Below the pieces are notes generated by a model. It saw only the letters and a program-made list of their open reading frames with translations, was not told the origin of the DNA and did no database searches. From the NCBI RefSeq assembly GCF_000196615.1, contig NC_014306.1:3534001-3598000 (forward strand): a stretch of DNA of 64,000 nucleotides, in the 5' to 3' direction. Position 1 is the first letter of the stretch; every line of letters starts with the position of its first letter. This DNA is from Erwinia billingiae Eb661. Its GTDB lineage: Bacteria; Pseudomonadota; Gammaproteobacteria; Enterobacterales; Enterobacteriaceae. The translations under genes were made by a program, and so were the position numbers. Positions 43,547 through 49,883 of this stretch are shown piece by piece.

Positions 43547-44230
43547 TTATAAAACAGGATCATCAATCTCCTCAACCAACTCACTTCCCTGATGCTTCAC
43601 GCTGCCCACTGACTTCGATACCGGGTGCCAGGTGAAATCATCTGATGGTATGGATTGCTCTTTGGCTATGTCCTTAGCCTCTTCAGAACTGGTATCGGGA
43701 TTGAGCCAGTCCAGCACAGCGGATGTGCTCAGAACCAGCGGCCGGCGGTCATGGATATCGACCAAACCTTTATCGCTGGCGGCGGTGACAATCACAAAGC
43801 CCTCATTCTCGTTCTGCTTATCGTAGGGAGCTTTGCCGATCGCAGCGAAGAAGATGGGTTTACCGGATTTGTGGTAGATGAAGTAAGGCTGCTTCTTGCT
43901 GCCGTCACGCTTCCACTCATACCATCCGTCGGCCATTACGATAGCGCGACCGTTGTTCCACAGCGGCTTGAACATGCGCCCGGTGGCTGCGGTCTCTACC
44001 CTGGCATTAATCAGCGGGGCTTTGTCCCACCACTCGGGCCCATAGCCCCAGTGAACCGGATCAAGATGAAGGGAGTCATCACGCTGATTTAGCAGCAGGA
44101 CATTGGTGCCGGGCGCCACGTTATACCGGCCGATCGGGTCAGGGTCGTAAGCAATCTCCCGCTCTACTTCGTCGGCAAACTCTTTCAGGTATTCTTCGCG
44201 TGTTCTGTACTGCGTGAATCGTCCGCACAT
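43547..44230 (-). CDS. SRAP/HMCES (YedK) protein
   Basis: 227 residues from the ATG that makes the catalytic cysteine residue 2 (MCGRFTQY). Other family marks: NVAPGTNVLLL, NARVETA, ADGWYEWKR and FTWHPVSKSVG with the conserved His. The family crosslinks abasic sites in single-stranded DNA, useful beside RecET. An IS3-family element begins ten bases upstream, so its own promoter is cut off. Part of the ribosome site (GAGGTGCCT) remains. A broken second copy lies at 49068. Confidence 0.92.
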   Translation of the reverse strand: MCGRFTQYRTREEYLKEFADEVEREIAYDPDPIGRYNVAPGTNVLLLNQRDDSLHLDPVHWGYGPEWWDKAPLINARVETAATGRMFKPLWNNGRAIVMADGWYEWKRDGSKKQPYFIYHKSGKPIFFAAIGKAPYDKQNENEGFVIVTAASDKGLVDIHDRRPLVLSTSAVLDWLNPDTSSEEAKDIAKEQSIPSDDFTWHPVSKSVGSVKHQGSELVEEIDDPVL

Positions 44231-44312
44231 AGGCACCTCTGTAGTGGCACACTGAATTTGGCCACCTGAATAGAGGTGATATCATCACCTCATAGTCAAA
44301 ACAGGTGACATT

Positions 44313-45487
<1,175 letters not shown>

Positions 45488-46387: not shown

Positions 46388-46411
46388 GAGATGAAGTCAT
46401 GAGAGGACGCG

Positions 46412-47122
46412 ATGAATGAGCTGGCTCTTTTCGCAGGCGCTGGCGGAGGAATACTCGGCGGGCACCTCCTTGGATGGAGGACAGTTTGCGCAGTTGAACG
46501 TGATGCCTACGCCGCACAAGTTCTGGCGCAACGACAAAACGATAGATGCTTGCGACCATTCCCGATTTGGTCTGACATCTGCAGTTTTGATGGAAAGCCA
46601 TGGAGAGGCATTGTTGACATCGTTTCTGGCGGCTTTCCCTGCCAGGACATTAGCTCGGCTGGACGTGGCGCAGGAATCGAAGGTAGCAGGTCAGGGTTGT
46701 GGTCAGAGATGGCAAGAATCATTGGTGAGATACGACCTTCATTCGTATTCGTGGAGAACTCACCCCTCCTTATCGGAAAAGGACTTGCCCTGGTCATCAG
46801 TGACCTTGCCAAAAATGGGTATGATTGTCAGTGGAGTCGTGTTTCAGCAAAAGAATTTGGTGCGCCTCATAAAAGAGACCGACTTTGGTTGGTCGGGAGA
46901 AATGTTCGCGACACCACAAGCCCGGGATTACCGATCGGGTTCAATTGCCAGATGGAAGGATCCGAAGAGGTCCAGAAACCTGAACGACCAGGTTGGTGGC
47001 CTGCTGAACCCGAACTGGCAAGAGTGGCTAATGGGATGGCCCATCGGGTGGACCGAATTAAAGCCCTTGGAAATGGACAAGTTCCGCGAGTGGCAGCAAC
47101 AGCATTCAGCATCCTGAAGTGA
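46412..47122 (+). CDS. Short C5-cytosine DNA methyltransferase
   Basis: 236 residues. Motif I LALFAGAGGG, motif IV GGFPCQDIS with the catalytic Cys, motif VI FVENSP, motif VIII region KEFGAPHKRDRLWLVG and motif X ALGNGQVP. The target-recognition region between VIII and X is only about 45 residues, far less than usual. Specificity may therefore be altered or activity lost. It may protect phage DNA from restriction. A second long frame overlaps it entirely. Confidence 0.85.
   Translation: MNELALFAGAGGGILGGHLLGWRTVCAVERDAYAAQVLAQRQNDRCLRPFPIWSDICSFDGKPWRGIVDIVSGGFPCQDISSAGRGAGIEGSRSGLWSEMARIIGEIRPSFVFVENSPLLIGKGLALVISDLAKNGYDCQWSRVSAKEFGAPHKRDRLWLVGRNVRDTTSPGLPIGFNCQMEGSEEVQKPERPGWWPAEPELARVANGMAHRVDRIKALGNGQVPRVAATAFSILK
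46416..47117 (+). CDS. Overprinted ORF on the methyltransferase gene
   Basis: 233 residues in another plus-strand frame, starting four bases inside the methyltransferase gene and ending five bases before its stop. Begins MSWLFSQALAEEYSAG; ends NPNWQEWLMGWPIGWTELKP and then LEMDKFREWQQQHSAS. I recall free-standing phage proteins with this same MSWLFSQAL start and WLMGWP..WT end, so both frames may be used. Biochemical role unknown. Confidence 0.6.
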   Translation: MSWLFSQALAEEYSAGTSLDGGQFAQLNVMPTPHKFWRNDKTIDACDHSRFGLTSAVLMESHGEALLTSFLAAFPARTLARLDVAQESKVAGQGCGQRWQESLVRYDLHSYSWRTHPSLSEKDLPWSSVTLPKMGMIVSGVVFQQKNLVRLIKETDFGWSGEMFATPQARDYRSGSIARWKDPKRSRNLNDQVGGLLNPNWQEWLMGWPIGWTELKPLEMDKFREWQQQHSAS

Positions 47123-49067: not shown

Positions 49068-49751
49068 TCACGAGTCCGGATTGCCAATGTCATTTACCAA
49101 GTCACTCCCCTGATTCTTAACATTCCCCACCGTCTTCAAAACAGGATGCCAGGTGAATTCGTCTGAGGGAATGGATTGCTCTTTAGCGATGTCCTGCGCC
49201 TGCTCAGAAGTGGTATCGGGATTCAGCCAGGCCAGTACTGCGGATGTGCTCAGAACCAGCGGCCGGCGGTCGTGTATATCAACCAGACCTTTATCGCTAG
49301 CCGCAGTGACGATCACAAATCCTTAGTTCGCGTTCTGCTTATCGTAGGGAGCTTTGCCGATCGCCGCGAAGAAGATGGGCTTACCGGATTTGTGGTAGAT
49401 AAAGTAAGGCTGTTTCTTGCTGCCGTCACGCTTCCATTCGTACCAGCCGTCGGCCATGACGATAGCGCGCCCGTTGTTCCACAGCGGCTTGAACATGCGG
49501 CCGGTGGCTGCGGTCTCTATCCTGGCATTAATCAGCGGTGCTTTGTCCCACCATTCGGGCCCGTAGCCCCAGTGAACCGGGTCAAGATGAAGGGAATCAT
49601 CGCGCTGGTTTAGCACCAGGACGTTTGTACCGGGCGCCACGTTATACCGGCCGATCGGTTCAGGGTCGTAGGAAATATCCTGCTCTGTTTCGTCGGCAAA
49701 CTCTTTCAGGTATTCTTCGCGTGTTCTGTACTGCGTGAATCGTCCGCACAT
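49068..49751 (-). pseudogene. SRAP/YedK copy 2, nonsense mutation
   Basis: Same length and nearly the same protein as the 43547-44230 gene, with Cys2 (MCGRFTQY). A TAA at 49323-49325 replaces a glutamate codon after DKQNAN; the frame resumes at once with GFVIVTAASDKGLV. The upstream leader AAAAAGGAGGTGCCT shows what the first copy looked like before its IS insertion. Confidence 0.9.
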
Positions 49752-49883
49752 AGGCACCTCCTTTTTCAAGGGTAGAGCATGCAGGTTAAGTGGTCAGCTT
49801 GACGACTTATAGTACTAAAGGTTTCAAGTGGGATGTCGATGAAACATTTACTTAGGATGAACGTATTTTACAAGGATTAATGA

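Follow-up and report, generated by a model that had tools for sequence, protein, structure and literature searches.

An overlapping gene pair in Erwinia billingiae Eb661 as a probable two-chain cytosine-5 DNA methyltransferase

In the 64,000-nucleotide stretch of Erwinia billingiae Eb661 analyzed here (the window; contig NC_014306.1, assembly GCF_000196615.1, positions 3,534,001 to 3,598,000 of the forward strand), two long proteins are encoded within prophage DNA by the same bases of the same strand: a cytosine-5 (C5) DNA methyltransferase frame, termed alpha (46412..47122, + strand, 236 amino acids, ATG start), and a second frame at +1 relative to it, termed S2 (46416..47117, + strand, 233 amino acids, with its own ATG). 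The pair had been noticed in a first-pass annotation, and the coordinates of both frames were confirmed in the list of open reading frames (ORFs). The locus raises the question whether S2 is a gene at all and, if so, what it contributes beside a methyltransferase, a point on which the annotation assigned no role. The evidence makes S2 the putative recognition and motif-IX partner of the methyltransferase.

Alpha contains the catalytic domain with motifs I-VIII by which a C5 methyltransferase is recognized, matching PF00145 at 1.9e-32 and phrog_363 at 5.6e-64. The PF00145 match covers only model positions 4-163 of 324 and ends at GAPHKRDRLWLVG (46859..46897, + strand), which closes the catalytic block and which we take to be motif VIII. 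Given the end of this match and the near-neutral evolution of the stretch that follows motif VIII (see below), alpha is a chain without a recognition domain and motif IX. Near its C-terminus the alpha frame reads ALGNGQVPRVAATAF (47063..47107, + strand), presumably motif X (ALGNGQVP).

Two open frames under purifying selection

Viral loci were fetched by an alignment of alpha proteins, blind to S2, and the best 80 of 599 confirmed stretches were taken; an S2 profile found S2 in all 80. Over the alpha spans of these loci, the +1 frame holds 77 stops compared with an expectation of 397.1 from shuffling synonymous codons within each gene, which keeps both protein and codon usage, and the +2 frame holds 1265 compared with 1003.0. 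Totals over whole alpha spans were used, since the absence of stops within the S2 span is partly circular, the span ending at the S2 stop. Samples driven by S2, and therefore biased by design, gave 87 stops for 338.5 expected and 85 for 365.6. As controls, the longest ORFs of 30 loci with PF00145 hits in other genomes of the family, several of these ORFs not being the methyltransferase itself, gave 490 +1 stops for 528.5 expected; L247, L268, L270, and L273 are individually low (p of 0.015 or less), and none is open, the longest +1 run being 163 codons. The loci are related, so that these tests are not independent. The suggestion of the first-pass annotation that such openness is improbable by chance is borne out.

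Among more distant alphas, +1 stops number 71 for 164.6 expected (24 loci) and 199 for 355.9 (32 loci), and lie mostly at the ends. A distant C5 methyltransferase, L300, shows no depletion (12 stops for 8.5 expected), and the overlap is therefore confined to some clades. Stops in the second frame, which the annotation had regarded as damaging to its view, are absent as a rule from this family, but they do occur in one S2-driven locus (L063) and in other C5 enzymes, e.g., L300.

The start of S2 can be followed through the alpha codon that contains it. In the window, the start region shared by the two frames reads ATGAATGAGC, with the S2 ATG four bases 3' of the alpha start, and the Shine-Dalgarno-like AGAGGA (46402..46407, + strand) is a candidate for both starts. 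Immediately 5' of the S2 ATG, 71 of 80 loci have a stop that shares bases with the alpha start codon. Since the S2 ATG needs an alpha codon ending in AT, usage of AAT and AAC tests its conservation: of 77 loci bearing the ATG, 74 use AAT at this codon and none uses AAC, whereas elsewhere in these genes AAC (385) is more frequent than AAT (238).

Between alpha genes whose proteins are 50-80% identical, 50-62% of third codon positions agree, compared with 37-41% in 33 control pairs, and fourfold sites of alpha are identical 1.66-2.19 times as often as composition predicts (controls 1.01-1.19 times). Differences between independent close pairs among 179 alphas, including that of the window, were then sorted as synonymous or nonsynonymous in each frame; the resulting nonsynonymous/synonymous ratios come from plain counting rather than model fitting, and few differences are synonymous in both frames at once. 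For 21 pairs at 85-97% identity, the ratio is 0.32 in S2 and 0.10 in alpha over the catalytic part, 0.07 and 0.39 over the stretch after motif VIII, and 0.51 (0.26-1.42) and 0.31 (0.17-0.87), with wide intervals, over the C-terminal part. The corresponding S2/alpha values for 62 pairs at 70-85% are 0.38/0.12, 0.34/0.79, and 0.23/0.25. In a distant group (104 alphas; 37 and 17 pairs), where S2 starts further inside alpha, the S2-frame ratio is neutral upstream of the S2 start (0.93 and 0.95) and falls to 0.33 and 0.21 inside S2, while in the recognition stretch alpha stands at 0.97 and 0.78 versus 0.50 and 0.15 for S2.

A comparison of all three frames gives the same picture for the recognition stretch. 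The DNA from motif VIII to the LNP motif was cut from 155 of 228 window-group and 73 of 80 distant-group loci, the others being dropped for a missed pattern or short length, and of 11315 cross-group pairs, 2687 gave a match in the S2 frame, 141 in the alpha frame, and 156 in the third frame. Alpha is therefore at background here, and S2 is the conserved frame; in the window, the alpha stretch relaxed to near-neutral rates lies between motif VIII and the C-terminal part (46898..46993, + strand, residues 161-193). Taken together, both frames are real, open, and under purifying selection, and the more strongly selected frame switches along the gene, from alpha to S2 and back.

Proposed recognition modules and a motif-IX-like segment in S2

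S2 proteins of the distant group consist of an N-terminal part, 2-7 modules starting like WPTP or WATP, and a closing GGxLNPxWVEWLMGxPxGWTDL; those of the window group have 0-5 modules by the same pattern. S2 also holds the motif LNPxWxEWLMGWPxGWT. The window S2 has one module, FATPQARDYRSGSIARWKDPKRSRNLNDQV (46905..46994, + strand), identified as its sole recognition module by the pattern count and by its likeness to L154, a metagenome-assembled genome labelled Candidatus Acetatifactor stercoripullorum, in which it recurs at 76% identity (S2 residues 162-215). It is followed by GGLLNPNWQEWLMGWPIGWTEL (46995..47060, + strand), which is motif-IX-like and shares its motif with the single-chain enzymes described below. 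The first-pass annotation had supposed that most of the target-recognition region was lost by a deletion which both frames survived. This cannot be upheld: the stretch is conserved in S2 and near-neutral in alpha, and with 0-5 modules in relatives of the window group and 2-7 in the distant group, the short region is a one-module version rather than a deleted one. Multispecific C5 methyltransferases of Bacillus phages, such as M.SPRI, carry several recognition modules in series within one chain and one frame; the phage enzymes studied here resemble M.SPRI, as it is generally described, in the serial modules.

The clue to the role of S2 comes from single-chain enzymes (P0298, P0325, and P0354; 586-798 amino acids), in which S2-type modules and an LNP or LSP motif stand in one frame with the PF00145 catalytic domain and motif X, although the N-terminal part of that domain is absent from P0354. 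These enzymes have the same modules and motifs as the window and differ from it in using a single frame, and in them the LNP motif occupies the place of motif IX. The pieces in the window follow the canonical order along the DNA, i.e., VIII, recognition, IX, and X. The LNP stretch and the stretch preceding motif X are consecutive in the single-chain enzymes, whereas in the window they are superposed: S2 reads its LNP stretch (46995-47060) from bases that in alpha encode the residues leading up to motif X (46994-47062).

Motifs VIII and X lie in the alpha frame without an intervening stop in 272 of 321 loci; the remainder comprise 2 with a stop between VIII and X, 1 with X in the S2 frame, 41 without a pattern hit, and 5 at contig ends. 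A different division is seen in L156 (2983-4497), where the large ORF stops after motif VIII and an S2-frame ORF takes in motif X besides several modules and the LNP motif. The layouts of P0246, P0300, and P0312 resemble that of L156.

Some other relatives are rearranged. Two S2 relatives, P0021 (392 amino acids) and P0071 (402 amino acids), begin with MSWLFSKA, continue with a long unrelated-looking stretch, and then have the rest of S2. In L062 and L153, frame changes, either real or due to sequencing error, fuse parts of both frames into one ORF.

A proposed methyltransferase of two chains

We consider it highly probable that the locus makes one C5 DNA methyltransferase from two proteins, with S2 as a detached target-recognition and motif-IX subunit, in the manner of M.EcoHK31I. 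Alpha would be the large subunit, with motifs I-VIII and X, and would bind the cofactor and carry out catalysis. S2, translated from its own ATG, would be the small subunit, made of a linker, one target-recognition module, and the motif-IX-like segment. The active enzyme would form when the two chains assemble, as has been reported for M.EcoHK31I, and the modules would set the target that is methylated.

In M.EcoHK31I, the small gene lies inside the large gene, in another frame. PMC3404938, which cites Lee, Kam and Shaw 1995 for this enzyme (recognition sequence YGGCCR), places motifs I-VIII and X together with a predicted recognition domain in its large chain and motif IX in its small chain, and PMC3439449 terms it naturally split. 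Compared by this published description, the window is alike in having two predicted polypeptides and a large chain with I-VIII and X (PF00145, with ALGNGQVP as X). M.AquI (CYCGRG), another split C5 methyltransferase, is described in the same paper as having part of the recognition region and motifs IX and X in the small chain (PMC3404938). The window would share with M.AquI the placement of a motif-IX segment and part of the recognition region in the small chain, but unlike M.AquI it has motif X in alpha; its relative L156, with X in the S2 frame, is like M.AquI in this respect.

Several observations weigh against a two-chain enzyme. For M.EcoHK31I, PMC3404938 assigns the predicted recognition domain to the large polypeptide, whereas here the recognition stretch is conserved in the small S2 frame. 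Six loci (L051, L096, L102, L135, L146, and L411) have a stop in alpha with S2 intact, the interruption lying inside the recognition stretch in L102 and L146, and L063 has an in-frame S2 stop with alpha intact; in all seven this may be real mutation or sequencing error. When the C-terminus of S2 was matched by profile directly to ordinary C5 enzymes, the result was not significant (Probab 0.20, E 0.3), its best alignment falling on motif IX, and S2 profile searches of the PDB returned no C5 enzyme, giving one weak unrelated match (E 0.15) in one case and none in the other. AlphaFold models were poor, with a pLDDT (predicted local distance difference test) of 54 for S2 and 45 for the natural alpha-S2 ORF of L062.

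Alternatively, a single chain might be produced by programmed frameshifting, in which the ribosome reads alpha, slips to +1 after motif VIII for the modules and motif IX, and returns for motif X. The canonical order of the pieces in the DNA, the passage of selection from alpha to S2 and back to alpha, and the existence of single-chain enzymes with that order would all fit such a scheme. However, constraint on S2 sets in long before motif VIII (ratios of 0.21-0.38 in its N-terminal part), neutrality of its frame is limited to the part that precedes the S2 start in the distant group, and its ATG is conserved. Moreover, since S2 draws its LNP motif from the bases that alpha uses ahead of motif X, one frameshifted chain could not hold both fully. 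We therefore regard frameshifting as very unlikely.

S2 might also be translated for another job, e.g., in anti-restriction or as a nuclease, with the overlap being incidental. It belongs to no Pfam family: the window S2 has no match, and 143 members gave a best E of 0.036, with hits by one member each; neither the PDB nor the structure models offered a useful match. Against this, single-chain C5 enzymes have the modules and the LNP motif placed between their catalytic domain and motif X, both share an ORF with motif X in L156, and no stand-alone S2 was found among 80 S2-driven loci (best 80 of 594); such a job seems very improbable. That S2 is an untranslated shadow ORF, open as a result of codon usage and of the constraint on alpha, might be argued from the generally lower expectation of stops in +1 than in +2 and from the many records annotating alpha alone. 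This is hardly credible and was rejected: shuffling with protein and codon usage preserved predicts 397 stops but 77 occur, and the rates at third positions, at fourfold sites, and by region speak against it, as does the three-frame test, with controls behaving as expected.

Distribution, origin, and significance

The S2 subunit proposed here belongs to a phage family, as the annotation had suggested: 2240 relatives were found at E<=1e-3 (best 120 listed), and 42 phage records and 5 plasmid records have matches. Such matches do overlap a methyltransferase, a check that the annotation had proposed: in 80 of 80 loci reached with a distant S2 query (best 80 of 594), an alpha frame lies at -1. S2 of the window is identical (100%) to that of a viral contig from IMG/VR (L007) and is the single copy in its genome. 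The family phrog_1008 is matched by the window S2 and by 7 of 7 distant S2 proteins; it is named DNA methyltransferase, and may thus be a family of the overlapping frame.

The overlap is common in phages, although gene lists mostly name one of the two frames. Both are annotated in the Paenibacillus larvae phages Shelly (gp55/gp56) and Leyra (gp61/gp62), in which S2, in contrast to the window, has several modules and a start well within alpha. The Shelly record labels gp56 'g55 internal gene' and the Leyra record names both products methyltransferase; neither gives the inner gene a distinct role. A table in PMC6070908 has two DNA-cytosine methyltransferases as neighbours, with overlap unmentioned in the text available, and among the papers listed by searches of the open-licence PubMed Central (PMC) literature none was on this overlap in phages. 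The two-polypeptide kind of enzyme is already known; as far as our searches show, what is new is how widely it occurs in phages, that recognition modules sit in the small overlapping frame, and that single-chain relatives exist.

In the window, the region is flanked by two ORFs on the - strand (43547-44236 and 49323-49769) with nearly identical starts, MCGRFTQYRTREEYLKEFAD, which in appearance we take to be of SRAP/YedK type. Slightly upstream of the methyltransferase lies an ORF pair on the + strand (44313-44624 and 44660-45487), presumably an IS3-type transposase.

As for origin, the overlapping pair may be the older form, with single-chain enzymes arising by duplication and fusion, because two ready-made sequences would hardly come to overlap. 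Scans for the DNA of P0298 and P0325, sought for traces of the other frame, did not find it and reached 2 and 5 other loci, two of which, L422 and L423, are again overlapping pairs. More tentatively, there may be a widespread phage class in which the recognition half is overprinted on the catalytic half, swappable modules of 30-45 residues are exchanged among phages in the +1 frame with the catalytic frame drifting almost neutrally through them, and single-chain enzymes arose later with the frames laid end to end.

If the two-chain enzyme is real, many phage annotations of a 'DNA cytosine methyltransferase' would describe half an enzyme, while the half that chooses the target would be unlisted, called hypothetical, or mislabelled, as in phrog_1008. 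Specificity predicted from the annotated frame would then be read from a near-neutral stretch. The locus offers a large and deeply conserved same-strand overlap through whose single-chain relatives the evolution of overprinting could be tested, and its array of modules would allow a recognition code to be tested as well.
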